Origin: Hyphomicrobium sp. D-2
Lineage (GTDB): Bacteria; Pseudomonadota; Alphaproteobacteria; Rhizobiales; Hyphomicrobiaceae
Direction: 5' to 3'
Length of the DNA: 64,000 bases
Assembly (NCBI RefSeq): GCF_029872155.1
Contig: NZ_JARXLA010000001.1
Location: forward strand, 1-64,000
The first letter of the stretch is position 1. Every line of letters begins with the position of its first letter. This document shows positions 2,762-64,000 of this stretch, one piece after another. The notes beneath the pieces were generated by a model, which had not been told where the DNA came from, ran no database searches, and was given only the letters and a program-made list of their open reading frames with translations. Both the position numbers and the translations under genes were made by a program.

Positions 2762-2904
2762 CGGGGTCCGAGGTATGCGGAGAGGTGGATGGGTGAAGAG
2801 AAAAACGGAAAGCAGCGCCCTTGTGTGGACGCTGCTTCTTCCGGTCAGCTAAGCTAGTTGCGAACGCTGCAAGGTGCGGCGTTCGCAAGTTCTGTCTGCT
2901 CAAG

Positions 2905-4116
2905 TCAGGCCGCTAGAACTTCATCGGCGGGGCCGAAAAACTCATAGTGAATGCGGCTGGCCGGTACGCCCGCTGCGGCAAGCGTAGAGACCGTTGCGTG
3001 CAGGAACGGGCGCGGGCCACAGATGAAGTAGTCAGCGACATCGACGGGCGTATTCGTCAGCAGCCATTCGTCAGTGACTCGGCCGACCTGCTCGTAGTGA
3101 TGTCCCTGCACTTCGTCGGTCAGCGGTTCTTCGTGGAAAGCGGTGATTGATACAGCCGTCCCGTTGCTGGCGAGTTTGCGTACGTGATCGCGCATGGCAT
3201 GCGTGGCGCGGTTCTGCGTGCCGTGGATATAGTGCACCGGCACGGCGCTGCCGCGCTCGACGAGAGTTTCCAGCATCGACACCATCGGCGTGAGGCCGAC
3301 GCCGCCGGACAGCAGAACAACCGGGCGCTCAACGTTCTCTGGCAGGAAGAATTCGCCAGCTGGTGCCGACACCTTGAGGATGGTGCCCGGCTTGGCGTTA
3401 TCGTGCAGCCATCCCGACGCGAGGCCCTGTGGTTCACGCTTCACGGAGATGCGATAGACGGCGCTGTTGGGGGCGTTGGAGATAGAATAGTTGCGCTTCA
3501 GCGGCGGATGACCGGGCACGTCGAGCCAGAATGTCAGGTATTGGCCCGGTTTGTGCCTGATGATGCTGCCGCCGTCGGCTGGGCGCAGCACGAACGAGCG
3601 GATGAGCTGGCTTTCTTCGATTATTTCTTCGACGCGGAAGTCGCGCCAGCCGTTCCAGCCGCCATCGGCGGATTTCTGCTCGGTGTAGATGTTGCGTTCG
3701 CGTTCGATCAGGATGTTGGCGAGAAACCAGTAGGCTTCACCCCATGCGGCGAGTATCTCGTCCGTTGCGGCATCGCCGAGCACGGCCTTGATGGCGCCCA
3801 ACAGTGCATCGGCGACGTGCGGATAGTGCTCCGGTAGGATCTGCAGGCCAACGTGCTTCTGGGCGATGCGCTCAACCGCAGGGCCGAGCACCGCGAGATT
3901 GTCGATGTTGCTGGCATAGGCAAGTATGGCGCCGGTCAGCGCGCGGGGCTGGGCGCCGACTCCATCGTGATGCGATTGATTGAAAAGATCGCGGATTTCC
4001 GGATTGCGAAACATGCGCGAATACATTTCGCGGACAATGTCCAGTCCGTGGGCCTCAAGTGCGGGGACGGTGGCTTTAACAAGCGCAATCGTGCTCGTGC
4101 TGACTGTCTTAGACAT
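2905..4116 (-). CDS. hmp: Flavohaemoglobin, nitric oxide dioxygenase
   Basis: Converts NO to nitrate using O2 and NAD(P)H in the cytoplasm. About 403 residues, the usual Hmp length. The globin domain (about 1-140) holds the proximal-His region QKHVGLQILPEHYPHV. The FAD domain has the RNYSISNAP motif and the NAD domain has GGVGLTPMVSML and CGPRPF. The start is set at ATG 4116: an AGGAG lies seven bases upstream, whereas the in-frame ATG at 4122 would sit only one base after it. It is the second gene behind the DUF1971 gene (33-base gap), and the pair is read away from nsrR with an NsrR box at 4477-4499, so NO-induced derepression is expected. Confidence 0.97.
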   Translation of the reverse strand: MSKTVSTSTIALVKATVPALEAHGLDIVREMYSRMFRNPEIRDLFNQSHHDGVGAQPRALTGAILAYASNIDNLAVLGPAVERIAQKHVGLQILPEHYPHVADALLGAIKAVLGDAATDEILAAWGEAYWFLANILIERERNIYTEQKSADGGWNGWRDFRVEEIIEESQLIRSFVLRPADGGSIIRHKPGQYLTFWLDVPGHPPLKRNYSISNAPNSAVYRISVKREPQGLASGWLHDNAKPGTILKVSAPAGEFFLPENVERPVVLLSGGVGLTPMVSMLETLVERGSAVPVHYIHGTQNRATHAMRDHVRKLASNGTAVSITAFHEEPLTDEVQGHHYEQVGRVTDEWLLTNTPVDVADYFICGPRPFLHATVSTLAAAGVPASRIHYEFFGPADEVLAA

Positions 4117-4149
4117 CAACATGCTCCTGACGATGTTTTTTGAAATGGA

Positions 4150-4437
4150 TTAGTGGGCGTCGCTAACAGGCACGCGGTCGTAGAAGTCGATCTGCATTTG
4201 CATCGGCCCAAGCGGGGTCACGAAATGCTTCTGTTCTGGCTGAACCAGGCCGGGATGCTCGGGATCAAGCACCGCCTCTATGCCATCGTCGGGATATGCA
4301 ATCTGCAGCCGCCCGGAATGGATTCTGATCACGCCCCAGACGCCTGCCTTGGTCGAATGCTCCTGTCGCAGAGCACGGGGCAGTGTCGTCTGGTCGAAAA
4401 TCGGCGTTGATCGGTAGGGGCGGATTGATTGGTCCAT
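4150..4437 (-). CDS. DUF1971 family protein, NO-stress operon
   Basis: A 95-residue cytoplasmic protein beginning MDQSIRPYRSTPIF. The run LPRALRQEHSTKAGVWGVI and the later YPDDGIEAVLDPEHPGLVQPEQKH region match the small DUF1971 family, which also occurs fused to TehB-like methyltransferases and is often found beside hmp, nnrS or nsrR. The start at 4437 is preferred to the upstream ATG at 4485, because starting at 4485 would place the NsrR operator (4477-4499) over the start codon. First gene of the operon with hmp. The family's biochemical role is not established. Confidence 0.8.
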   Translation of the reverse strand: MDQSIRPYRSTPIFDQTTLPRALRQEHSTKAGVWGVIRIHSGRLQIAYPDDGIEAVLDPEHPGLVQPEQKHFVTPLGPMQMQIDFYDRVPVSDAH

Positions 4438-4476
4438 GACAGATGCTCCCCAGCAGCTTTTTTTGTCTTGGCCTAT

Positions 4477-4499
4477 AACATGCATTTTTTATGCATCTT
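4477..4499. promoter_or_regulatory. NsrR operator in the DUF1971-hmp / nsrR divergent region
   Basis: AACATGCAT, five T residues, then ATGCATCTT form a 23-base near-perfect inverted repeat with one mismatch between the half-sites. This equals the enterobacterial NsrR consensus layout (AAGATGCAT-N5-ATGCATCTT). It lies 40 bases before the DUF1971 start and 151 bases before nsrR. Repression of both directions is likely. Confidence 0.85.
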
Positions 4500-4520
4500 A
4501 TACATGCGACAAATATGTAT
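4500..4520. promoter_or_regulatory. Second inverted repeat next to the NsrR box
   Basis: ATACAT, nine bases, ATGTAT form a 21-base inverted repeat that directly abuts the NsrR box on the nsrR side. It resembles a looser second half-site pair or another regulator's operator. Seen in sequence only; the binding protein is unknown. Confidence 0.35.
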
Positions 4521-4649
4521 TGTTCGCGCATGAATTAACGGCGATCCTTGATGGGCAGCCGGCGCTCGCTTGTGGATGCGTCGGTGTGGCGGCATGTTGG
4601 AAGCGCATTTGGGCTTGCACACTGGCGAACAAGCGGCGAACAAAATCAG

Positions 4650-5078
4650 ATGAGGTTGACCACTCACACCGATTACGCACTGCGCGTGCTGATGTATCTC
4701 GGCGCCCGTCCCGACGAGCGGGCGACGATTGAGGAGATCGCGCGCGTCTATGGCATTTCGCAGAACCATCTGATGAAGGTGGTCAACAATCTGGCGCGCC
4801 ATGGCTGGGTCGAGGCGCAGCGCGGACGTGGCGGCGGGTTGAAGCTGGCGCGCGATGCAAGTCAGATCACCGTGGGCGCCGTGATCCGCACCACCGAGGA
4901 AGATTTCGATCAGGTCGAATGCTTTCGCGCGACCAATTCCTGTCCGATTATGGGCCCGTGTCTGCTCAAGCGTTCGCTGGCTGATGCGATGGACGCTTAT
5001 CTCGCGGTGCTCGATGGCGTGACGCTGGCCAGTCTGGTGCGCCAGCCACGGCAATTGCTGGCCGCGCTGGCGGTTTAA
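4650..5078 (+). CDS. nsrR: NsrR, Rrf2-family NO-sensing repressor
   Basis: A 142-residue Rrf2 protein with an N-terminal winged helix (MRLTTHTDYALRVLMYL; recognition region ISQNHLMKVVNNLAR). Cys91, Cys98 and Cys104 (CFRATNSC then CPIMGPC) are spaced as in NsrR, where they ligate an Fe-S cluster destroyed by NO. The start at ATG 4650 gives the canonical MRLT N-terminus; a longer frame from 4548 would add 34 residues with no family counterpart. It is divergent from DUF1971-hmp and shares the operator region. A second matching box before the truncated globin at 57.7 kb suggests at least two targets in this window. Confidence 0.95.
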   Translation: MRLTTHTDYALRVLMYLGARPDERATIEEIARVYGISQNHLMKVVNNLARHGWVEAQRGRGGGLKLARDASQITVGAVIRTTEEDFDQVECFRATNSCPIMGPCLLKRSLADAMDAYLAVLDGVTLASLVRQPRQLLAALAV

Positions 5079-5232
5079 GCGCAATCGGAAGGCATTGATC
5101 GTCGATGGTTGCGCTTGCTGCGGGCCAGCTGAGACAGTTCATGCGCGACCACGTGCGCGGGCGCGATCGTCTGCGGCACTGAGCTATAAACGGCCGCAGG
5201 AATAACAGCCGGGTGCCGGAGAACTACGCGCA

Positions 5233-7005
<1,773 letters not shown>

Positions 7006-7047
7006 TTCATTCCTGGCGCACAAATCACGTGCGTGCGGTTCAGAAAC

Positions 7048-7088
7048 AAAAACGGAGCGCCCGCCTTGATGGCTTGAGCTCCGTTTTT
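7048..7088. terminator. Bidirectional rho-independent terminator
   Basis: AAAAACGGAGC (7048-7058) pairs perfectly with GCTCCGTTTTT (7078-7088), giving an A tract on one side and a T tract on the other. It sits between the convergent acyl-CoA dehydrogenase and citrate synthase genes and can serve both. Confidence 0.85.
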
Positions 7089-7111
7089 CATTGCGAGCCG
7101 GCGCGGATCGG

Positions 7112-8428
7112 TCAGCTGCGCTGATCCATCGGCACGAAATTGCGCTCTGCCGGGCCGAGGTAAAGCTGACGCGGACGGCCGATGCGCTGCTCGGGATCTT
7201 CGATCATCTCATTCCACTGCGCGACCCAGCCGACGGTGCGCGCTATAGCGAACAGAACCGTGAACATCGACATCGGGAAGCCGAGCGCGCGCAGCGTGAT
7301 ACCGGAATAGAAGTCGATATTTGGATAGAGCTTCTTGTCGATGAAATACTCGTCCTGCAGCGCAATGCGCTCCAGCTCCATCGCAACTTCCAGCACCGGG
7401 TCGTGCTTGATGCCAAGCGCGTTGAGCACCTCGTGGCAGGTCTTCTGCATCACCTTGGCGCGCGGGTCGTAGTTTTTATAAACGCGATGACCGAAGCCCA
7501 TCAGGCGGAAGCCGGACGATTTGTCCTTGGCCTTCTTGATGTACTCCGGGATGCGATCAACCGAGCCGATTTCCATCAGCATGTTGAGCGCTGCTTCATT
7601 GGCGCCACCGTGCGCCGGGCCCCACAGGCAGGCGATGCCGGAGGCAATGCAGGCGAACGGATTTGCGCCGGAAGAACCGGCAAGACGCACGGTTGAAGTC
7701 GAGGCGTTCTGTTCGTGGTCTGCGTGCAGAATGAAGATGCGATCCAGCGCGCGGGTAAGGATCGGGTCGATCTTGTAGGGCTCGCATGGAATGGCGAAGC
7801 ACATCTGCATGAAGTTTGCCGCGAAATCGAGATCGTTGCGCGGATAGATGAACGGATGGCCGATCGAATACTTGTAGGCCATGGCGGCGATCGTCGGCAT
7901 CTTGGCGATCATGCGATTGGACGCCATTGCGCGCTGCGCCGGATCATTGATGTCGGTCGAGTCGTGATAGAATGCTGACAGCGCGCCAACGGTGCCAACC
8001 ATCACGGCCATCGGGTGCGCATCGCGCCGGAAACCGGTGAAGAACCGCGTCACCTGCTCATGCAGCATGTTGTGGCGGTTGATTGTGCCGCGGAATTCAT
8101 CGAGCTGGCCCGTGGTCGGCAGTTCGCCGTTCAGCAGCAGGTAGCACACCTCAAGAAAGGTTGAGCGCTCGGCAAGCTGGTCGATCGGATAGCCGCGATA
8201 GAGCAGCACGCCTTCATCGCCATCAATGTAGGTGATGCGCGACGTGCAATTGGCCGTGGACGTGAAGCCGGGATCGTAGGTGAAGCAACCGGTGTCGCGA
8301 TAGAGCTTGCCAACTTCGATAACCTCAGGACCGAGCGTGCCGCTGCGAACGGGCATACGGCTGAGCTTGCGTTCCAGCGTAAGCTCGGCGGCGGGCTCGC
8401 AGTTCGGCGCTCTTTCGTGCACATTCAT
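7112..8428 (-). CDS. gltA: Citrate synthase
   Basis: Type II citrate synthase condensing oxaloacetate and acetyl-CoA, the entry step of the TCA cycle. 438 residues from ATG 8428 ([20 protein letters not shown]); AAGGA lies upstream of this ATG, and a longer frame to 8533 is not needed. Active-site regions are clear: [51 protein letters not shown] and the C-terminal [16 protein letters not shown]. Single gene, convergent with the acyl-CoA dehydrogenase. Confidence 0.98.
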
Positions 8429-8563
8429 GGGTGCATTATCCTTGTAATGGTGGTCCTGAAGTCGTCGGCCACCAGAATATTCACTGGCGACCTGCAGGCA
8501 TTTGCCGTCGGCGCGCAAGGCAAAAAGGAACACGCGAGCCTTAGACCAAATGACAGCGCTGGT

Positions 8564-8932
8564 TTATTCGCTACGGTCGGGAATGTCCGGCAGCCGCACG
8601 ATGGGCATCATCTGATCCCCCCATTGACCGGCACCGTTGTGATAACGCGATGCGCGGATCAGTTCGACCGTGGCACCTGCTTTCACCGCCGCCTCAATCT
8701 GCTCGTTCAGGCGATGCAGCGTGTCGGCGAGACGCTTTACCAGAGTGTCGGCGTTTGGCTGCTGGTCAGGCGATTGTGCCCGCTCCTTCGATTGCATTGC
8801 ATTCGCTGCGGTCATGATAGCTGCGCCCATGCTGAAAAGCCCTTGCCAGATTTGGTTGTTCGCATTATCCGCAACGTATTGCCTGCGCGAAATTCCTGAA
8901 TTTGTTGATGTTTGCAATGCTTTTGGCGGCAA
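8564..8932 (-). CDS. Small conserved-looking hypothetical protein
   Basis: Up to 122 residues. The C-terminal half (LVKRLADTLHRLNEQIEAAVKAGATVEL followed by RASRYHNGAGQWGDQMMPIV) has a normal amino-acid composition, a predicted amphipathic helix and then a short beta-rich tail. The start is uncertain: ATG at 8932, 8830 (MGAAIMTAANAM) or 8815 are all possible and none has a strong ribosome site. It lies upstream of gltA on the same strand, 135 bases away. No function is recognised; overlapping plus-strand frames look less protein-like. Confidence 0.55.
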   Translation of the reverse strand: MPPKALQTSTNSGISRRQYVADNANNQIWQGLFSMGAAIMTAANAMQSKERAQSPDQQPNADTLVKRLADTLHRLNEQIEAAVKAGATVELIRASRYHNGAGQWGDQMMPIVRLPDIPDRSE

Positions 8933-9144
8933 GCGTCGAATTTTGTGAATCGCGGCGCCCGCGAGCGCCCGTCGGATGCGCCCAATGCGTGGATTGCCGG
9001 CCTTTTAGTGCTCAAGCTTTCATGGTACATCAGCATGGCTGCGCAACAGGCTGTAATATATCAATTTAATCAGATTTGATGTCGGAACCATCCGCGGCCA
9101 TGACGGTTGTGGGGTGTCAGATACACCTCACAGGAGCAACCGCC

Positions 9145-9465
9145 ATGAAATCGGCCTTCGGGAAAATCGCTTTCAGCCTGCTAGCTTTGTCGTTTGGATC
9201 GTCAGCATTTGCTGGCGGTGGGACGTTGGGAAAAGATCCGGCGGCCGACCGGCGGGCTGGCGATGGCCGGCACTTCGGCATGCACTCGGCTGCCGATACC
9301 AACCGGGATTCAGCGATCACGATTGAGGAATGGGCGGCTTACAAGTCGTCGTCCGGCAAGCGTCTGCCGGAGTTTGCGTCGATCGATACTGATCGCAACG
9401 GTTTCATCTCACCGCAGGAAATGGTGCAGGCGAAAAACCAGTTCTCGGACGCATCGGACGATTAA
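9145..9465 (+). CDS. Exported EF-hand protein
   Basis: 106 residues beginning MKSAFGKIAFSLLALS with a signal peptide cut after about AFA (residues 21-23). Two EF-hand loops follow: DTNRDSAITIEE and DTDRNGFISPQE, each with the D-x-N/D-x-D/N spacing and a terminal Glu, so periplasmic Ca2+ binding is likely. The start is fixed by CAGGAG eight bases upstream; an in-frame ATG at 9076 would hide the signal peptide. It ends at the 9468-9510 hairpin. Partner and role are unknown. Confidence 0.8.
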   Translation: MKSAFGKIAFSLLALSFGSSAFAGGGTLGKDPAADRRAGDGRHFGMHSAADTNRDSAITIEEWAAYKSSSGKRLPEFASIDTDRNGFISPQEMVQAKNQFSDASDD

Positions 9466-9467
9466 CA

Positions 9468-9510
9468 AATACTGCACCCGGTAAAAATGTTCTTTGCCGG
9501 GTGCAGTATT
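9468..9510. terminator. Hairpin terminator between convergent genes
   Basis: AATACTGCACCCGG (9468-9481) pairs perfectly over 14 bases with CCGGGTGCAGTATT (9497-9510), with a 15-base loop. It separates the EF-hand gene from the TonB receptor gene, which converge on it. There is no long T run, so it may act by stem strength or as an mRNA 3' end. Confidence 0.65.
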
Positions 9511-9518
9511 GGTGGCCA

Positions 9519-12500
9519 TCAGAAGCGATAATTCAAACCGGCCTTGAGTGTATGCAGGTCGATCGAATTGGATGCGTTGCGTCCATTCACGATGCTGAAG
9601 CTGCCGGGATTGGTTACGCCCTGATAGGTGTAGGGAATACCCGTGCCGGACTTAGCGAGCGGGAATGCGAAGTCGTGGTTGCCAAAGTGGCTGTATGTGT
9701 ATTCGCTCTTGATCGACCAGTGGTTGTCGATTGCGTATTCAGTGCCTGCGCCGAGTATCCACCCTGAGCGCAGCTCTTTGGTTTCTTCCTGGAATGCGAA
9801 TGTAGTGGCCGTTCCGTTCGGGCTCCGGTTGTTGCCGCTGGTTGAGCGGAACTGGCTTCGGCGGGCGGTTTCGCTGGCCAGTGCATAGCCGCCGGTGCCG
9901 TAGAGCAGCAGGCCATTCTGGAACGCATAGCCGAGACGGCCGCGCAAGCTGGATGTCCAGTCAATCTCATAAAGTGTTGCCGCTTGCAGCACGTTGAGTC
10001 CATTCAGGGATGTCTCAGTTGCGCGCGCTTCATGCAGCGTCGCGAGGTTGGAAGTTGAGTAATCAACTTCGAGGCCCACAACGAAGCGATTGCGAAGCTG
10101 CCAGTTGAAGCCTGCCTGTACGCCGCCGAAGAAATTATCTCGTAGTGCGAGATTTACAGATTCTGTTATCGATACGGGATCGCTTGTGCCGTCGAGAGCT
10201 GTTGTCGTGCCCTTGGTGCGGCCCAGGGACATGCCGCCGTGGATACCCATGTAAAGACCACGCCACTCTCCTGCTTCAGCGAGCGACGGCAGATTGTTTA
10301 TTGCGGGCAGGGTGACGTCGCTGCCGCCGCCCAGCTCAGCGGTCAATCCCATGCGCACGGTACGGCCCGGCCCCGGCTGGTTCACAAGGCCAAGCGGATC
10401 CACGTAGTATTTATCGGTGATGTTCTCAACGGACACACTGGCTTTAAGCTGATCGGTGATCTTGTACTCGGCGAAGGCGTCAACGAGCGTGTAGGGCTTC
10501 CATTTAATCTGCGAGATGAAGCTGCTCATGCCGGTCTGCGTGATCTGACCATGGCCAATAGCGCGCGGACCGACGTATGAAACGCGGCCGCCGACTGTCA
10601 GGCGATCTTTCAGCAACTTCTGTGCAACCGTGAGGTCGATGGAGTACTTCGGCGGTACGTGGTTGGTAGCGTAATCTGAATATAGCGATTTGCTGTCGCA
10701 GGGTTGGCCTTTTGAGCAGTATTCTATGCCCAGATAATAGTTGGCGGCGAGGTCTGCGCTGAAACCGGCGACTTCGTAATGACCCGAAAACTCCAGACCG
10801 GAGAATTTCGCGTTATCGAGATTGAGGATGCGCATGCCGAGGCGATTGGGCTCGTATTCGCTCCACTGGCGCGAGATGTAGTTTTCGATGTTCCAGTTGA
10901 AGTAGCCAAGCTTGATCATGCCGCGGTCGCGCGCTGTAAACACGCCGTCCTTATGCAGATTGGCTCCGATTTCCCAATTATTGGCGCGCTCGGGACCGAG
11001 ATCAGGATTGATGATCAGGGTGAAGGCGGAGGAAACCTCCATCAGGCTGGGATAGCGCAGCGAGCTGGAGTAATTGGCATAGAGCTGAACGCCATCAATT
11101 GGCTGCAACGTGACACCGATTGAGGGGCTGAAGCCGCTATCTTCCCGGCGCGGATCTTTATTCAGATACTCCACCGCGTTGGCCCACGTCTTGCGGTCGA
11201 GCATGCTATATTCGGAGTATCGCAGGCCGGCATTCACCGTCATCCAATCCCACGGTGTGTATGCCGCCTTGGCGAATGCACTGGCCTCGTCGCGCTTGGC
11301 GTCACGCACATTGAGCCAGCCTTCGATGATGTCGGCGTACGCACGCGGTCGCGTGTCCTCAGTGAGCCATGACAGGCCATAGCTGAGACTGAGGGCGCCG
11401 AGTTGGTCGCTATCGAATGTGGATGTGTTGCTGACGTCGCCGCCGTACATGATCGTGTCGGCGCCGGTGCGATAGCCGACAGGCAATCCGAGTGTCGGCG
11501 GCTGTGTGCCGTAAGCGTTACGCGGCGGATTGCGCTGTTCGAGATCAGACAGCCAAACGTTGGCTTTCAGCTCGAACAGTTTGGAGTCGACTGGTTTCCA
11601 ACGGTAGCGCAGCGTTCCGGTGTCGAGGCTTGTTCCTGCGGTTTGGCTTTGCTGTGTTGACTGTGTGAGCTTTGAGGTCAACTGCGAGGCCATCCGGTCG
11701 CCAGCTTCGCCGCGATATGCAGTGTAGCCCAGTTGCAGCGTGTGCTCGTCGTTCAGGCGGATGGTTGCTTTGCCGAGCCATGATCGCGTTTCAAGCTCGG
11801 TGTTGAGCACCTCTTCGCCTGCGCGATAGCTGCTGATGCCGGGGTTGTAGAAGTACTGCGGCCAGTGCTCGCAGATGCCGTTGGTGTTGCAGATGTCGCT
11901 TGGGCCGGCGTTGATGGCTTCGGCTGCGGGTCCGTTTTTGCCCGCATGGTAGTTGCCCTGCTTGCGATGCGCATAGCCAACGACGAGATCGACGTTATCG
12001 CCTTTCGTGGCAGCAAGGATACTTGCTGCGCCGTTGGTTGGCTGCAATATGCTCGGGCGATCCATGCCATCGGGAGATTCAACGAGCGGCCGGCCCGGTC
12101 GACTGGGATAGGCATATCCCGATAGCGCCCCGGCTTCCGGCGATGATGTATTTGTGCCGAAGCTGCCTTTGACACGCATGCCCCATGTTTCACCGGGCTT
12201 TACGATGTCGTCGGCATCCACGGTGCGCATCGTCACCGTTCCGGCGATGCCGCGGGATGCGACGTCCGAGCCCTTGTTGATGTCGATGGACGAGATGAAA
12301 TCAGGATCGACAAACGTGCGATTGGAAGCGCCCTGATACCCCTGATAGATTGATACAGCATTCTCGGCGCCGTCGATGGTGGTGGCGACGCGCCCCATGC
12401 CCTGCATGCCGCGGATGTTCACATCGAGACCGCCGCTGTTGCGCGATTCACCCGACATCACGCCCGGTGTGCCACGAAAGATATCCGCTGGGCTGGTGCC

Positions 12501-13034
12501 GCGAAAACGTTCAATGGTCTGGCTGGAAATGTGCGCTGCTGCGCCGGGCGTCTCATATGGCGTATAAACTGATGTACTAGTGCCCGCGCCACCGCTGACA
12601 TCGATCGTGTCGAGTGCGATTGCGCCATCGACCGTTGCGCCTTCTGCGCCAGCGCTTTCCTGCACCAGCGTTGCGGTGTTGGCGCCGGTCATGCGCACTG
12701 AAATGCCGGTGCCCGACAGTAGCGTGCGCAATGCCTGCTCTGGCGACATCGTGCCCGATACGCCTTGCGCGGTGACGCCGCTGGCGATGCTGGAGGAATA
12801 GCCCACCTGCCAGCCGCTGGCCGTAATGAAGGCGCTGAGTGCCGATGATAGCGGCTGCGCCGGAATGGAAAAGCTGCGCGCCTGGGTCTGCCCCGCGCCC
12901 TGGGCGAAAGCGGGCTGAAATGGTGCGGCTACGGGTGTCAGCATCGTCGTGCTGAGCAGCACGAAGGTGAAAACGGATCGCGTGACGCGCGCGTCACGGC
13001 TGGTGGCGATACGCGCCAACTTACTCAACGCCAT
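9519..13034 (-). CDS. STN-type TonB-dependent haem/haemoglobin-family receptor fused to an Omp25-like beta-barrel
   Basis: 1171 residues. Signal peptide about 1-45. An STN signalling domain follows (about 53-125; FSIPAQPLSSALSAFITASG), then a TonB box (DTIDV at 142-146), plug (about 165-290) and receptor barrel to about residue 900 (VQLYANYSSSLRYPSLMEVS; end GPGRTVRMGLTAEL). A further ~250 residues (922-1171, DNA 9522-10271) form a separate opacity/Omp25-type eight-strand barrel: WRGLYMGIHGGMSLG, DWTSSLRGRLGYAF, GWILGAGTEYAIDNHW, terminal GLNYRF. The first part imports an iron/haem compound with TonB energy; the STN domain talks to the FecR encoded just upstream. The tail's role is unknown. 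No stop or start lies between the parts, so this is a true fusion in this sequence. It is longer than the usual 700-900-residue receptors. Confidence 0.92.
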   Translation of the reverse strand: MALSKLARIATSRDARVTRSVFTFVLLSTTMLTPVAAPFQPAFAQGAGQTQARSFSIPAQPLSSALSAFITASGWQVGYSSSIASGVTAQGVSGTMSPEQALRTLLSGTGISVRMTGANTATLVQESAGAEGATVDGAIALDTIDVSGGAGTSTSVYTPYETPGAAAHISSQTIERFRGTSPADIFRGTPGVMSGESRNSGGLDVNIRGMQGMGRVATTIDGAENAVSIYQGYQGASNRTFVDPDFISSIDINKGSDVASRGIAGTVTMRTVDADDIVKPGETWGMRVKGSFGTNTSSPEAGALSGYAYPSRPGRPLVESPDGMDRPSILQPTNGAASILAATKGDNVDLVVGYAHRKQGNYHAGKNGPAAEAINAGPSDICNTNGICEHWPQYFYNPGISSYRAGEEVLNTELETRSWLGKATIRLNDEHTLQLGYTAYRGEAGDRMASQLTSKLTQSTQQSQTAGTSLDTGTLRYRWKPVDSKLFELKANVWLSDLEQRNPPRNAYGTQPPTLGLPVGYRTGADTIMYGGDVSNTSTFDSDQLGALSLSYGLSWLTEDTRPRAYADIIEGWLNVRDAKRDEASAFAKAAYTPWDWMTVNAGLRYSEYSMLDRKTWANAVEYLNKDPRREDSGFSPSIGVTLQPIDGVQLYANYSSSLRYPSLMEVSSAFTLIINPDLGPERANNWEIGANLHKDGVFTARDRGMIKLGYFNWNIENYISRQWSEYEPNRLGMRILNLDNAKFSGLEFSGHYEVAGFSADLAANYYLGIEYCSKGQPCDSKSLYSDYATNHVPPKYSIDLTVAQKLLKDRLTVGGRVSYVGPRAIGHGQITQTGMSSFISQIKWKPYTLVDAFAEYKITDQLKASVSVENITDKYYVDPLGLVNQPGPGRTVRMGLTAELGGGSDVTLPAINNLPSLAEAGEWRGLYMGIHGGMSLGRTKGTTTALDGTSDPVSITESVNLALRDNFFGGVQAGFNWQLRNRFVVGLEVDYSTSNLATLHEARATETSLNGLNVLQAATLYEIDWTSSLRGRLGYAFQNGLLLYGTGGYALASETARRSQFRSTSGNNRSPNGTATTFAFQEETKELRSGWILGAGTEYAIDNHWSIKSEYTYSHFGNHDFAFPLAKSGTGIPYTYQGVTNPGSFSIVNGRNASNSIDLHTLKAGLNYRF

Positions 13035-13156
13035 TTACTCAATTCCCTCATACGCTGGGGCTGGTTTGCACCGGCCTCAACGCTAAGGACGCAGGACCAC
13101 CGACGATCTCTTAAAAAAAGTTTTCGGAATCTGCCCGAGCCGTCGCGTCAGCGAAG

Positions 13157-14179
13157 TCAGCGCAGGATGATGACGCCCGGCAGTGTCGTAACTTTCGCGC
13201 CTGCCGCCTCCGCCAGCGAGCGGATGGCGAGCGCGGGATCGTCGAGTTTGTAGCTGCCGCTGACGGCGGTGCCTTGCAGCGCGCTGTTCCACACGACGAC
13301 GCGGCCGCCGTAGTAGCGCTGAAGCTGCTTCAGCACGTGACCGAAGGGCTGCTGATCGAATGTGATGCGGCCTTCAACCCAGGCGAATGCCGATGCGGTG
13401 TCGATGGCGCGCACGGAAGCCATTGTCGCTGGGCCAACGTTTACGGCTTCTCCGGGCGCCAGATCGGTGTGATCGGACGGTTGTGCGAGCCTGCTGACCG
13501 CAACCTGGCCGCGGGCGAGGGCGACGTCATCAACGTTGTTTTCAAGGTGAACATCGAACGCGGTGCCGGTGACGCTGACGCGGCTGTAGTTGCCATCGAC
13601 AACAAATGGGCGTGCTGTGTCGCGCGCGACGTCGAAGAATACCTGGCCTTCAAGCACGTGAACGGCGCGGCTGCTGTCGGTGAAGTTGACGGCAACGGCA
13701 GAAGCGGTGTTGAGGATCATGCGCGAGCCGTCGGGCAGGCTGATCGCGCGCTGTTCCCCAGTCGCGGTCATGTAGTCGGCGCGTGCCCACAGCATGATAT
13801 CGGACGCATGGGTCGCGCCCCACAACAGCAGGATTGCAGTTGCGGCCGTCGTGACGTTGCGGCGTCGCTTGCGCGTTGCGTTGGCGGGCCGGGTAGCTTC
13901 GGCGACGTTTTCAGCCGCTTTCAGGAATTCCGGCTCGCCCCACAATGCGGCCACTTCAGCGAAGGCTGCTGCGCGGCGCGGGTCGCTTTCGCTCCAGGCG
14001 CGGAAATTGCGGCGGACCGCAGGGTCGTTGGTGGCCGCCTGCAGACGCACAAACCAGTCCAGCGCCTCGTCCCGATACTGCGTTTCATTGCCGGGGCTGG
14101 AAGCCTGCGCGTGCGCGTTGCTCTGGTCGTCCTGCGTCACCGCTGCCCCCGGATGCGCCGCGACCATCGCCGCGGCCAT
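13157..14179 (-). CDS. FecR-family anti-sigma factor / signal transducer
   Basis: 340 residues. The N-terminal cytoplasmic DUF4880 region (about 35-80; YRDEALDWFVRLQAATNDP) would hold the sigma factor. One membrane helix (about 108-125; VTTAATAILLLWGATHA) follows, then a periplasmic FecR domain (LPDGSRMILNTASAVAVNF) and a C-terminal STN-like segment (FDQQPFGHVLKQLQRYYGG). It should relay occupancy of the downstream STN receptor to the upstream sigma factor. It lies 83 bases after the sigma gene and 122 bases before the receptor gene, all on one strand. The start could be a few codons later; the family call is firm. Confidence 0.93.
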   Translation of the reverse strand: MAAAMVAAHPGAAVTQDDQSNAHAQASSPGNETQYRDEALDWFVRLQAATNDPAVRRNFRAWSESDPRRAAAFAEVAALWGEPEFLKAAENVAEATRPANATRKRRRNVTTAATAILLLWGATHASDIMLWARADYMTATGEQRAISLPDGSRMILNTASAVAVNFTDSSRAVHVLEGQVFFDVARDTARPFVVDGNYSRVSVTGTAFDVHLENNVDDVALARGQVAVSRLAQPSDHTDLAPGEAVNVGPATMASVRAIDTASAFAWVEGRITFDQQPFGHVLKQLQRYYGGRVVVWNSALQGTAVSGSYKLDDPALAIRSLAEAAGAKVTTLPGVIILR

Positions 14180-14262
14180 GCGTGTATCGCCTTCGTCACG
14201 GCAGGAGGTAGCAGCATTCGCATTGGGTGCAAACCGGGCTGGCGCGTTGACGGGCGTATCGC

Positions 14263-14781
14263 TCAGTCCCTGTCCAGCCGCGCCATGGCGTCCATGCAGT
14301 GGGCCATCGCCATCCGCAGTTCATTATAAACCGTGCTGGTGGACACGCCGAGATGATCGGCGATGGCGGCAAAGGTCCAGCCTTCCTTGCGGCTCAGCAG
14401 CAGAACGGCGCGCGCTCTTGGCGGCAGCGTCATCAGGGCGGCTTCGAACTTTGCCAGACGCTCGCGGTCGATGACTTCCTTTTCCGGGGTTGGTGCGTCG
14501 GACGCGATGTTCCAGATCGCGCGTTCGTCGGTGATCGGGCATTCAACGCGCGAACGGCTGATGGCGCGGCGGCTCTGGTCGACGGCGACGCTCTGTGCGG
14601 TCCGATAGAGGTAATGGTTGGGCTGTTCGATCGGCGTTGCCGGCGATGCCGCCAGCAGGCGCAGGAACGTTTCCTGGGTGGCGTCGGCCGCGTCAGCGGC
14701 GTTGCGCAGTCTCCGCATGAAAAACGAGCGCAGGCGGCCTTCCTCGCGTCGGTGGAGTTCATAGACTAGCGTGCCAATCAT
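14263..14781 (-). CDS. FecI-type ECF sigma factor
   Basis: About 172 residues starting MIGTLVYELHRREEGRLRSFF. Region 2 carries DAADATQETFLRLLAA; region 4 carries RKEGWTFAAIADHLGVSTSTVYNELRMA, a helix-turn-helix for the -35 element. The start at 14781 has GGGGATCGC just before it; a frame from 14835 would add 18 residues outside the family pattern. With the FecR and the STN receptor downstream it forms a complete cell-surface signalling set, expected to drive the receptor gene when its substrate is bound. Confidence 0.93.
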   Translation of the reverse strand: MIGTLVYELHRREEGRLRSFFMRRLRNAADAADATQETFLRLLAASPATPIEQPNHYLYRTAQSVAVDQSRRAISRSRVECPITDERAIWNIASDAPTPEKEVIDRERLAKFEAALMTLPPRARAVLLLSRKEGWTFAAIADHLGVSTSTVYNELRMAMAHCMDAMARLDRD

Positions 14782-15090
14782 GCGATCCCCGATTACGCGA
14801 ACCTGTGGGTTGCCCCTCACCGGGGCGCCTGCCATTGCCAGAGGAGTAAAAACGCTGGCTGGCGTTTCACTTCAATCCCAATGATTTAGATCGGGTCCAG
14901 ACAGGTCTGCGGCCGCCGTTGGATAGTTTACTTGCGTGGTATAGTTTTATGTTTCTATTCCATGGCTTAAGGGCAGGCGTCACCGACAGTGAGTAGCATT
15001 TAGCGGCGCACGATTTTGGTCAGGCGTGGCGGCGCTGCAACATTCGGGACGCCCCTCGCACATTCCTACAAAAGGTTTCACCCCCACGGC

Positions 15091-16206
15091 ATGAAGCAGG
15101 ATCAGCAGTTCGAGATATTTCTGGTTGCGACGCCGGGCCTTGAGGGACCGTTGTGCGCGGAGGCGCGCGCCTGCGGTTTCAAGGCCAAGACCGTGCCGGG
15201 TGGCGTTGAGATGAAGGGCGGCTGGCCGGATGTGTGGCGCGCCAATCTTGAGCTGCGCGGCGCGGGCAAGGTCTATGCGCGGATCGACAGCTTCCACGTG
15301 AAGAACCTGGGGCAGCTTGAGCGCCGCGCGAAAACGGTGCCGTGGCGGCAAGTGCTGCGCAAGGCGATGCCGTTCCGCGTTGAGGCCACATGCAAGAGCT
15401 CGAAGGTGTATCACTCGGGCGCCGCCGAGGAGCGCATCGCGCAGGCGATCACGGAGCAGGTCGACGCTGTTCCTGACGAGAACGCCGACGTTTGCATCAA
15501 GGTGCGCATCGAGAACAACATCTGCACGGTAGCGGTCGATACGTCGGGCGAGTTGCTGCACAAGCGCGGACACAAGCAGGCCGTTGCCAAGGCGCCGATG
15601 CGTGAAACGATGGCGTCGCTGTTTCTGCGTCAATGCGGTTTCGATGGCACGCAGACCGTGCTGGACCCAATGTGCGGATCGGGCACTTTCGTGATCGAAG
15701 CGGCGGAGACGGCGTCGGCTCTGATGCCGGGACGTGCGCGCCGGTTTGCGTTCGAAAAGCTCAAGGGCTTTGATGATGTGGCATGGCGGGCGATGCGCGA
15801 AGCACATGTTGCTTCGAAGCCGGCGGTGCGGTTCTACGGCAGCGATATCGATGCAGGCGCCGTCCGCATGAGCCGGGAGAATGCCGAGCGTGCTGGCGTG
15901 GCGGACATCACATCATTTCAGGAGATGGACATCGCCGACATCACGCCGCCGGAAGGCGCGGAGCCGGGCATCGTGATCATTAATCCGCCCTACGGTGATC
16001 GCATCGGCAACCGAGCCAATCTGAAGCTGCTTTATCGCACCATGGGCGATGCGCTGCTGAAGCGCTTCAGCGGCTGGCGCGTCGGGCTGGTGACCAATGA
16101 GGAGCAACTCGCGCAGGCAACCGGCCTGCCGTTTTCGCTGACGGCGGAACCGGTGCTGCATGGTGGCCTGCGCATCGTGCTCTATCGCACCGGCCCGCTG
16201 CCGTAG
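15091..16206 (+). CDS. rlmL: THUMP-domain rRNA guanine-N2 methyltransferase, RlmL-like
   Basis: 371 residues from ATG 15091 (MKQDQQFEIFLVATPGLEG). The N-terminal THUMP/ferredoxin-like part (about 1-160) binds RNA; the C-terminal Rossmann domain has the SAM motif DPMCGSGTFVIEAAE and the catalytic NPPYGDRIG typical of N2-guanine methyltransferases such as RlmL (23S rRNA m2G). It matches the N-terminal methyltransferase of E. coli RlmL/KL rather than the full fusion. The preceding 255 bases hold no gene and presumably the promoter. TrmN-type tRNA specificity cannot be excluded. Confidence 0.88.
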   Translation: MKQDQQFEIFLVATPGLEGPLCAEARACGFKAKTVPGGVEMKGGWPDVWRANLELRGAGKVYARIDSFHVKNLGQLERRAKTVPWRQVLRKAMPFRVEATCKSSKVYHSGAAEERIAQAITEQVDAVPDENADVCIKVRIENNICTVAVDTSGELLHKRGHKQAVAKAPMRETMASLFLRQCGFDGTQTVLDPMCGSGTFVIEAAETASALMPGRARRFAFEKLKGFDDVAWRAMREAHVASKPAVRFYGSDIDAGAVRMSRENAERAGVADITSFQEMDIADITPPEGAEPGIVIINPPYGDRIGNRANLKLLYRTMGDALLKRFSGWRVGLVTNEEQLAQATGLPFSLTAEPVLHGGLRIVLYRTGPLP

Positions 16207-61842: not shown

Positions 61843-64000
61843 TCAGAAGCGATAGGCGATGCCGACGTTGAAGTCATGTAGCTTCAGGTCCATGTGATAC
61901 TGCCCTTGCACGTTGTAAGGACCAGCGGGTGTTAAAGGAGCCTGATACCAAGTAAAGCTTTTGGAGCCGAGATCAGAAAAGCTGTATTCCGCACGCACTG
62001 TCCAGTTATCGCTCAACGCATGTTCAAGACCAGCACCGATTGTCCATCCGGTATAGGTCTCACCTTTGTAGTTCACTGCCGGAGCTGGCGTGATGGCTAG
62101 TCCGCTGCCGGTCCAGAAATTAAATTCGTGACTGTATTTTGCCGCGGAAAAACCGCCGGTGATGAACGGCAGGTATCTTCCGATTGCGTAACCAAGTCGC
62201 CCCTTCACCGCACCACTCCAATCGAGCTCGGAATTGATACCGGCGAAATGACGTCGATCTATGCCGCTACTGGTAACTGTACCACTCCAGACAACGCTCT
62301 CCTTGATCTCAGCGTTGCTCAGCGATAGCCCTGCGTCGATGCCGACAACCAAGCCGGAAGCGAACTGCCGGTCGGCGCCGGCGCGCAGACGACCCGAATA
62401 GCCACGGGTGTCCTTGGCGACAAGGAAGCCGGTTGTAGGCAAACGTGCTACCGGAGCCATGATTTTGTCAGTCGCAGCTTCAAGGAACTGATAGCCGCCA
62501 TCAAGTCCGATGCGCACACCGCTCCAGTCGTACGCTGTGCTATCCGTTGAACCTTGACCACCAAACGGCAGCAAGCCGGCCAGCACGCTGTTAGAGCCGT
62601 TTCCGAACAAGTCGCCTTCGCCGAATTTCACCGACGCGCCGCCGAATATCCGCCGACCCGGGCCCATGTCCTGCGACATTGCCGGCATGTACGCGACGTC
62701 GGTTAGGTTGGTCACGTTAGCAAACAGGTTCAAGCGCTCCGATGGCTGGAAGTTGGCGAACAGATCGTACGTCCGATAGGCATCCGTTTGCCAAGTGCCG
62801 CCCTCAACAAGTGTGCCTTGCGACACATCGTTCATGCGTGCCCCGAGCGTCAGCTTGCGGTCGAACAGCCGAATGCCACCTGTCAGTGTTGTGTAGTCGT
62901 CAGGCAACCGGCTTGGTTCACCCATGCCGCCGATGCCATCGCCAAAAGTGAGATTTGACTCATTCTTCGCGTAGGTGATGGCTGCAAACCCCCACCCGAT
63001 ATCGTAGCTGGCCTCCAGCTCATAACCTGTCAGCAAGCTGGTGCCAGGCGCGTTTTGAAACCAGCATACGGATGCACTCGCAAAACATTTTGCGATAATG
63101 AAATCCTCTACATCCTTGCGATACCACGCTGCCTTGAGGCGGAACGCGTCGTCATCCGTAAGGATGCCATTGCGCAGGATGTTGGCGCCGAACTCCCAGC
63201 CTGCGGCCGTTTCAGGCTGCAGGGCCGGGTTGGGCAGAAAGCTGGCGGTTGCTCCGGCGCCGTGTGAGCCGCCGAAAAACATTTCATTTACGGATGGTGG
63301 CCTGAAGCTCCCCTCGTAGGTTCCATAGAGCTGCAGCCAATCGACTGGCTTGACGGCCAACGTCGCCTTCGGGCTCACCGCATACGTGGTGTCGTCGACT
63401 GAGAAGTCACCTCGCCATGGTGCATTGAACGGAGACTCTGTAATTGTGTAGCGCGCTGGATTGTTCCAGTAGGAGTTCGATGGACGCGTCAGAGTATCCC
63501 TAGTGGAATTCGCGACGCTGTCATAAATCGTCCAGTAGACATCCGACACATTTCCTGTCGATCCCGCGCTCTTCATCGTGAACCGGTCGACACGCACACC
63601 GGGGATGAACTCGAAAATTCCAGACGTCAACGTTGCCTGCACGAACGCACCGCCGACGCTGGAAACGCCATCCGGGTTGGCATCCGCCGTCGTGTTGCCG
63701 GAGAAATCGTCGCGATAATATTCCAGGCCGTAGTGTAGCTTCAGTGCCGCTTGATCGAACTGGAATTTCGATGTGTTGCTGATATCAAATGACAGCCCCT
63801 CGTTGGTGATGATGCGGCCGCCATAGCTCAGGCTACCCGTCCACTGCGAGCTTGTCTCGTTGAAGGCGCCGTTGATGCGCAGGTCGACGAGATCGTTGCC
63901 AGGTGTGTAGGCATACTTCGCTGTCAGCGTCCTGTTGGTGACGGTTTGATCGTAGAAGTTGGCCCTGAAATCCGTCGAATAATAAATGCCACCGACATCA
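61843..64000 (-). CDS. TonB-dependent haem/haemoglobin-family receptor fused to an Omp25-like beta-barrel (5' end outside window)
   Basis: Open through the window edge, so the N-terminal plug and any STN domain are not visible; 718 codons are seen. The receptor barrel runs from the edge to about 62.6 kb (VDWLQLYGTYEGSFRPPSVNE, GPGRRIFGGASVKF). The last ~227 residues (about 61846-62526) form an opacity/Omp25-type barrel: WSGVRIGLDGGYQF, DWSGAVKGRLGYAI, GWTIGAGLEHALSDNW, VRAEYSFSDLG, terminal VGIAYRF. This is the same layout as the receptor at 9.5 kb but with diverged sequence, so the fusion is old or was made twice. Transport substrate is inferred as haem/haemoglobin only from family likeness. 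Confidence 0.9.
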   Translation of the reverse strand, partial: DVGGIYYSTDFRANFYDQTVTNRTLTAKYAYTPGNDLVDLRINGAFNETSSQWTGSLSYGGRIITNEGLSFDISNTSKFQFDQAALKLHYGLEYYRDDFSGNTTADANPDGVSSVGGAFVQATLTSGIFEFIPGVRVDRFTMKSAGSTGNVSDVYWTIYDSVANSTRDTLTRPSNSYWNNPARYTITESPFNAPWRGDFSVDDTTYAVSPKATLAVKPVDWLQLYGTYEGSFRPPSVNEMFFGGSHGAGATASFLPNPALQPETAAGWEFGANILRNGILTDDDAFRLKAAWYRKDVEDFIIAKCFASASVCWFQNAPGTSLLTGYELEASYDIGWGFAAITYAKNESNLTFGDGIGGMGEPSRLPDDYTTLTGGIRLFDRKLTLGARMNDVSQGTLVEGGTWQTDAYRTYDLFANFQPSERLNLFANVTNLTDVAYMPAMSQDMGPGRRIFGGASVKFGEGDLFGNGSNSVLAGLLPFGGQGSTDSTAYDWSGVRIGLDGGYQFLEAATDKIMAPVARLPTTGFLVAKDTRGYSGRLRAGADRQFASGLVVGIDAGLSLSNAEIKESVVWSGTVTSSGIDRRHFAGINSELDWSGAVKGRLGYAIGRYLPFITGGFSAAKYSHEFNFWTGSGLAITPAPAVNYKGETYTGWTIGAGLEHALSDNWTVRAEYSFSDLGSKSFTWYQAPLTPAGPYNVQGQYHMDLKLHDFNVGIAYRF

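Follow-up and report, generated by a model that had tools for sequence, protein, structure and literature searches.

A TonB-dependent transducer of Hyphomicrobium sp. D-2 with a second predicted outer-membrane barrel, in a naturally shuffled receptor family

Background

The TonB-dependent transducers FecA, FpvA, PupA/PupB and HasR are built of an STN signalling domain, a TonB box, a plug and a 22-strand barrel, and have fecI and fecR genes adjoining. The gene described here, designated F1, has the same plan. It is located at 9519-13034 on the minus strand of a stretch of 64,000 nucleotides from Hyphomicrobium sp. D-2 (contig NZ_JARXLA010000001.1, positions 1 to 64,000; this whole stretch is called the window below), and its nearest solved relative, both by sequence and by Foldseek E-value, is HasR. 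Unlike the FecA/HasR-type transducers, F1 has a second complete barrel after the receptor barrel. It is a TonB-dependent transducer of a rare two-barrel form and belongs to a family of receptors that are shuffled naturally.

The same order supplies small outer-membrane barrels resembling the tail of F1, namely Brucella Omp25/Omp31 and Bartonella Hbp/Pap31, which we take to be members of PF13505; the likeness is drawn without a direct comparison with Omp31 or Hbp sequences. These proteins are free-standing, whereas the barrel of F1 is covalently joined to a transporter. For some of them, Omp31 and Bartonella Hbp, binding of haemin is reported (PMC9728373, PMC8877253). Among the titles and abstract beginnings listed from the open-access literature, none describes a fusion between a TonB receptor and an Omp25-type barrel.

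In the SusC shufflons of Bacteroides, DNA of a single genome is inverted by a site-specific recombinase, and receptor genes recombine near the TonB box. As an analogue drawn from general background, they resemble the present case in that the transport part of a TonB-dependent receptor is exchanged against the regulatory N-terminus; unlike a shufflon, the evidence here consists of replacement between species with short homology in a hinge. According to a review, transport followed the barrel in chimeras of PupA and PupB (PMC9249621); those chimeras were made by hand, whereas the exchange of STN and cassette reported here is natural. No natural exchange of this kind at the TonB box is described in the titles and abstract beginnings listed on that subject.

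Gene architecture

F1 is a single intact frame of 1171 codons that reads from STN through TonB box, plug, haem-type barrel and linker to a PF13505 barrel. Pfam placed STN at residues 75-124, Plug at 160-262, the TonB barrel at 425-872 and OMP_b-brl (PF13505) at 917-1171, the last with an E-value of 1e-14 and 55.5 bits (cut-off 28.7), and the NCBIfam model TIGR01785 (haem/haemoglobin receptor) was matched with 358.7 bits, over its curated cut-off of 316.85. The combination of STN, plug and TonB barrel in one chain, with an extracytoplasmic function (ECF) sigma factor gene and fecR adjacent, identifies the 1171-residue product as a TonB-dependent transducer, and the signalling domains of HasR, PupB and FecA match its STN. 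The original prediction, a single frame in which an STN-type receptor runs into an Omp25-like barrel, is confirmed by the intact frame and the Pfam domains. The position that it gave for the tail was borne out (about 9522-10286), and the domain search that it proposed returned the receptor domains followed by a separate PF13505 domain at the C-terminus.

Read along the minus strand, a signal peptide region recognised by eye (residues 1-45, 12900..13034) precedes the STN domain (about residues 53-125, 12660..12878; Pfam and predicted structure), the hinge with the TonB box (residues 133-149, 12588..12638), the plug (12249..12557; Pfam) and the receptor barrel of 22 predicted strands (residues 284-902, 10329..12185; AlphaFold and Foldseek). 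A linker (residues 903-925, 10260..10328; AlphaFold), expected from topology to lie on the periplasmic side, leads to the second barrel, which is of the Omp25/opacity type with eight predicted strands (residues 926-1171, 9522..10259; Pfam and AlphaFold) and ends in GLNYRF.

An AlphaFold2 model of full-length F1 (12 alignment rows, mean predicted local distance difference test [pLDDT] 69.6, predicted template-modelling score [pTM] 0.62) has 22 strands at 284-902 followed by 8 at 926-1170, counted from the strand list of the model with short pieces merged by hand, and the linker is poorly predicted (pLDDT below 50 across 903-921). In Foldseek, HasR had the best E-value for the receptor part, and ChuA/ShuA were covered with a target template-modelling score (TMt) of 0.85-0.86, which suggests that the first barrel can do without any strand of the tail. 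Folded by itself (5 rows, mean pLDDT 71.4), the tail has eight long strands, and its fold matches are weak (OmpA/Ail/OprG/OmpX, TMt up to 0.69). The ends of both barrel types are expected in the periplasm, so a short periplasmic linker can connect them. Prediction supports a chain of two separate barrels, each probably closed, and the architecture as a whole is well supported, partly by these models. The proposal of two beta-barrels in one chain is in this way supported by structure prediction; the accompanying suggestion of a tether to peptidoglycan is not supported, as the Pfam scan of F1 found no peptidoglycan-binding domain, including the C-terminal domain of OmpA type, and the likeness to OmpA is to its barrel only, and weak.

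Occurrence of the fusion

The genome (3.79 Mb, 9 contigs) contains eight fusions of a receptor with a PF13505 barrel, F1-F8, of 1063-1210 amino acids, counted among 16 complete STN-type receptors collected from it. Fusions were found in three of eight Hyphomicrobium genomes, with one each in genome G003 and in Hyphomicrobium sp. NDB2Meth4, and in four of 103 genomes of the family (search at E<=1e-38). In a sample of 297 genomes of the order, for which only the best seven candidates per genome were scored, the fusion was present among the matches listed in this genome and in G210, with an STN-less version in G058; in a sample of 385 genomes of the class (E<=1e-46, best five candidates per genome scored) it was present in the own genome only. 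A full-length query at E<=1e-60 matched 4 of 40 relatives, the own genome included.

In a plasmid search, 8 of 1085 matching records covered at least 80% of the query. Fused genes were identified on plasmids of Ancylobacter polymorphus, Pseudochrobactrum (four records), Ketogulonicigenium robustum, Novosphingobium sp. RL4 and Shinella zoogloeoides, and also in Kaistia terrae, NDB2Meth4 and the metagenome-assembled genome KLAP182. The fusions span three alphaproteobacterial orders, and the plasmid records indicate that the order and class genome samples miss fusions. Genes for a sigma factor and for FecR (or DUF4880) are directly upstream in all three annotated plasmid regions that show that side. 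The six annotated plasmid copies that reach the tail are labelled "TonB-dependent receptor" only; annotation by overall best hit conceals both the second barrel and the exchange of cassettes described below.

The G058 protein (L097 1023-4238), from another family of the order, is a TonB receptor of 1071 amino acids with no Pfam STN and a C-terminal PF13505 domain, seemingly a separate fusion. Two proteins of 567-585 amino acids (L019 913-2616 and L020 2470-4227) have an N-terminal Omp25-type barrel followed by about 300 residues without a Pfam match, and are possibly further double-barrel chains. On a Pseudochrobactrum plasmid (L120 1398-9630), an unfused and a fused receptor stand in tandem, each with its own sigma factor and FecR genes; they are 58% identical past the TonB-box region and differ in the presence of the second barrel.

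Replacement relative to H. sulfonivorans

The F1 locus is syntenic in H. sulfonivorans S1, with identities of 90.7% over window positions 2772-9465 and 92.6% over 12587-16204. The 3121 bp between them (9466-12586) stand against a different segment of 2343 bp, without a blastn match, in which the encoded protein is 38% identical to F1; the H. sulfonivorans receptor is unfused and has 909 amino acids. The conserved 5' part of F1 ends at gene nucleotide 448, within the TonB-box hinge VDGAIALDTIDVSGG, and the 3' limit of the replacement, which lies 53 bp beyond the receptor stop, is the stop codon of an EF-hand gene. The exchanged segment comprises plug, receptor barrel, second barrel and a terminator-like hairpin, an inverted repeat of 14+14 directly past the F1 stop (9468..9510, by eye); by eye, each species has a different hairpin at this place.

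At the F5 locus, gene nucleotides 1-428 are 96% identical between the two species and are followed by a different cassette (40% protein identity), which again belongs to an unfused receptor in H. sulfonivorans. Receptor loci U4, U7 and U8 are conserved throughout, so that two of the five receptor loci found syntenic (F1 and F5) have replaced cassettes.

A block of 15 kb with three receptor genes (U2, F4 and U3), each with a fecR gene, was located at L015 2665-17996 (contig C8, about 718.7-734.0 kb); it is absent from H. sulfonivorans, where its flanks are nearly adjacent. At the F7 locus, H. sulfonivorans has only an STN-like remnant (L053 about 5916-6143, corresponding to L045 4501-4835).

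Exchange at the TonB-box hinge

Of 30 receptor genes, 29 have a fecR gene no more than 300 bp upstream. Identities of FecR, STN and cassette were compared for 29 genes (406 pairs), with the tail included in the cassettes of fused genes. The thirtieth gene, that of KLAP182, was left out because its FecR, though present, overlapped an over-long start call, and the FecR of U8 entered incomplete (253 amino acids, cut at the edge of the sequence piece). FecR was at least 60% identical in 11 pairs, and in all of these STN was at least 67% identical, whereas the cassette was at least 92% identical in four and only 35-45% in seven. Ten other pairs have cassettes 64-96% identical, yet STN domains of only 33-51% and FecR proteins of 31-39%; G3U and G6U, for example, share 96% of the cassette and 51% of STN.

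A model with a single break point was fitted to each of 13 discordant pairs out of 17; related genes recur among them. Twelve of the 13 breaks fall between -12 and +31 residues from the TonB box; of these, pairs that agree on the left side have their break after the box, and pairs that agree on the right side have it before the box. For F2/P37, the thirteenth pair, the break was placed at -47 and its interval (-51 to +8) spans the TonB box; one further interval is wide (+5 to +158). Four control pairs of orthologues gave breaks from -84 to +319 with gains of 1.9-11.4 log-likelihood units, against 7.9-71.0 in the discordant pairs. Among the 16 paralogues of this genome, 12 of the 13 aligned exact runs of at least 28 nucleotides are in the hinge. 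A 35-base version of the hinge with the uncommon codons ATA GCT CTT occurs nine times in this genome and four times in H. sulfonivorans (at most three mismatches), and in none of 58 other genomes.

From the clustering of exact runs in the hinge and the break points at the TonB box we infer homologous exchange through this short hinge (12588..12638) as the means by which cassettes move. That F1 is a natural mosaic, in which the transport part appears to have been swapped at a fixed seam beside the signalling domain, is well supported by these comparisons; the mosaic nature of the gene and its being one of eight fusions go beyond what had been predicted originally. Signalling domains are described as binding their cognate anti-sigma factor (PMC11637429); taken with the PupA/PupB chimeras, this suggests that a swapped cassette behind an old STN should still signal via the same FecR. 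Recombination of the signalling and transport halves at the TonB box would allow the ligand range to change while gene control is kept.

History of the second barrel

A tree of 30 receptor cassettes requires nine changes of the fused state, at least seven of them forced by well-supported branches. The nearest cassettes of F6 and F4 are those of the unfused Hs1 and U6 (both well supported), and that of F1 is the unfused H36 (support 87/88). When 45 barrels are placed on a tree, the 13 that are fused with an STN receptor need three changes, at least two of them forced. A single origin of the fusion had fitted a smaller barrel tree (19 rows, 81/89) and was rejected by the 45-row tree; a motif filter removed 15 of 20 free-standing barrel loci before the former and 6 of 37 before the latter. 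The tails of F5, F6 and KLAP182 are 53-69% identical and their receptors 40-42%, and other comparisons, such as that of F2 with NDB2Meth4, show the reverse (tail 64%, receptor 77%). Loss, regain and a second exchange joint are all possible causes of the scatter of the tail. A decayed second barrel downstream of the unfused paralogue U1 was also considered, and a reading in three frames shows none.

Comparison of G003 with NDB2Meth4 gives ratios of nonsynonymous to synonymous substitution rates (dN/dS) of 0.084 in the tail, 0.065 in the receptor and 0.087 in the N-terminus. F2 and NDB2Meth4 are more distant, with dS above 1.2, and their ratios are 0.20 in the tail and 0.12 in the receptor. In the one close pair measured, G003 and NDB2Meth4, these ratios indicate that the tail is under purifying selection.

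Proposed function and alternative explanations

As a transducer of the FecA/HasR type for haem or a haem-like ligand, F1 would consist of three modules. The signal peptide and STN, specific to the locus, would talk to the adjoining FecR; the plug and barrel would form a transport cassette that is exchangeable through the conserved TonB-box hinge; and the complete eight-strand barrel of Omp25/31 type would follow the last strand of the receptor after a short linker. The second barrel would lie next to the receptor in the outer membrane, tethered to it as a companion that binds at the surface, and would collect haem or haemoprotein in the way reported for the free-standing Omp31 and Bartonella Hbp, and its terminal strand may be the one recognised by the beta-barrel assembly machinery (BAM). 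A cassette swap would alter the imported ligand and leave the FecI-FecR wiring of the locus as it was. Sequence alone establishes the single frame and its domains, the exchange of the second and third modules at the TonB box relative to the sister species, and the scattered occurrence of the third module. The modular transducer whose tethered second barrel captures haem or a haemoprotein beside the transporter is tentatively put forward as the best explanation of them. A broader picture is more doubtful, namely that Hyphomicrobium and its relatives shuffle domains naturally, with STN as the locus address, cassettes swapped via the hinge and a mobile capture barrel acting in cis to make a double-barrel importer.

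The haem assignment draws on the family profile, from which F1 is called haem-type and its ligand suggested, and on NDB2Meth4, where genes for haem oxygenase and a DUF454 protein and then exbB, exbD and tonB come after the fused gene in the same orientation. Several observations weigh against the proposal. No haem gene was recognised in profile scans of the F1 neighbours, which comprise genes for Rrf2, an acyl-CoA dehydrogenase, citrate synthase, an SMc00767-like protein, the EF-hand protein, an RlmL-like methyltransferase, a glycosyltransferase and a heparinase-like protein. The fused gene of KLAP182 is followed by genes for DUF6607, DUF454, ExbB and ExbD, and no haem oxygenase was identified there. 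In Kaistia terrae, a haem oxygenase-exbB-exbD-tonB set (L035 8339-12504, minus strand) stands behind an unfused receptor and is convergent with the fused gene; being on the opposite strand and behind that receptor, it was rejected as support for the fused gene, and our confidence in the best explanation, until then evenly balanced, was lowered slightly. HasR presumably holds haem with two histidines, one in the plug and one in the barrel; F1 has a tyrosine at the plug position (GYQG for GHG) and no histidine between its FRAP- and NPNL-like motifs, so haem is not secure as its ligand. The receptors that adjoin haem oxygenase in NDB2Meth4 and at locus L037 likewise have the plug tyrosine, and F7, F8 and U8 retain the histidine. 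Many close receptors have no second barrel, which implies that the barrel is not needed for uptake in general. With regard to exchange at the hinge, FecR and STN identities are uncorrelated over all 406 pairs (rho 0.02), the 3' limit at F5 is not clean, since synteny is not regained until 2.9 kb beyond the gene except for a single 69-bp match, and codon identity in the hinge averaged over the 16 paralogues is unexceptional (0.51, with 0.58 in the best window elsewhere); this average was rejected as a marker of the hinge, which long exact runs do mark.

Binding of haem or a haem carrier by the second barrel and help in assembly, both of which had been suggested originally, are both possible. 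The second barrel might chiefly aid assembly or stability, supplying the C-terminal strand recognised by BAM or shielding the receptor and binding no ligand. All 19 unfused genes examined have an aromatic residue at the end of the receptor barrel, as do 8 of 19 fused ones (F1 has leucine), and F is the final residue of the second barrel in 18 of the 19 fused proteins, the exception being the G058 protein with its short extra tail; in the tandem Pseudochrobactrum pair, the unfused receptor ends SLTANF-stop beside SLTAEIGGEQQ in the fused one. The receptor's own end-strand signal thus looks relaxed once the tail ends the chain. The compared genes are related rather than independent, however, and such relaxation is expected whatever the function of the tail; unfused paralogues of the same genome do without it, and an assembly role does not by itself explain a whole barrel retained with low dN/dS. 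As the chief role, assembly is judged unlikely. Less likely still is that escape from phages or bacteriocins using these receptors is what drives the barrel and the cassette swaps, the second barrel masking or diversifying the surface. Cassettes replaced at two of five syntenic loci between flanks about 91-93% identical, the mere 38-40% shared by the replaced cassettes and the frequent changes of tail status on the receptor tree would fit such escape, but the same pattern fits a change of nutrient, and no evidence of phages or bacteriocins was sought.

A neutral read-through fusion, in which an omp25-type gene was joined downstream and is carried without a role, would agree with the mixture of tailed and tail-less receptors on the tree and with the commonness of unfused relatives. 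It is hard to reconcile with the tail dN/dS between the two close species (one pair) with at least two lineages of fused barrels on the barrel tree and with the presence of fusions in three alphaproteobacterial orders, and we regard it as improbable. Least probable of all, to the point of being hardly credible, is an artefact, either a mis-assembled junction or one larger composite barrel. The first 1.5 kb of the contig does contain broken frames, but the other seven fusions of the genome and those in named genomes and on plasmids make chance or assembly error very unlikely, and both flanks of F1 match the sister species; a junction artefact, which the original prediction had named as a way to fail, was rejected on these grounds, the taxon survey that it called for having found the same fusion in several named genera. 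Its other reservation, that the tail might be an integral part of one barrel, is answered by the match of the first barrel to complete haem receptors and by the eight strands of the tail alone.

The fusion offers a natural and recurring example of a single chain with two outer-membrane barrels, and it bears on recognition and release by BAM, in particular on whether an internal, relaxed end-strand is enough.

Other features of the locus

Upstream of F1, the fecR-type regulator gene (13157..14179, minus strand), whose product is 93% identical to its H. sulfonivorans counterpart, and the gene for the fecI-type ECF sigma factor (14263..14835, minus strand) were assigned with Pfam and NCBIfam. Downstream, the EF-hand gene (9076-9465; Pfam) is convergent with F1 and encodes a small secreted-looking protein. 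A second fusion of a receptor with an Omp25-type barrel, F7 (1082 amino acids), occupies 61843..64000 on the minus strand of the window and extends to contig position 65091. The DUF6607 gene of KLAP182 (L038 7687-8724) is located directly 3' of the fused receptor, and DUF6607 is possibly an unnamed part of such uptake loci. The contig of the window begins inside a frame-broken receptor gene (1-1502), and a similar, likewise frame-broken receptor is present at the end of contig C4 (L073 8757-10861); the two may be one gene that is poorly sequenced at both contig ends.

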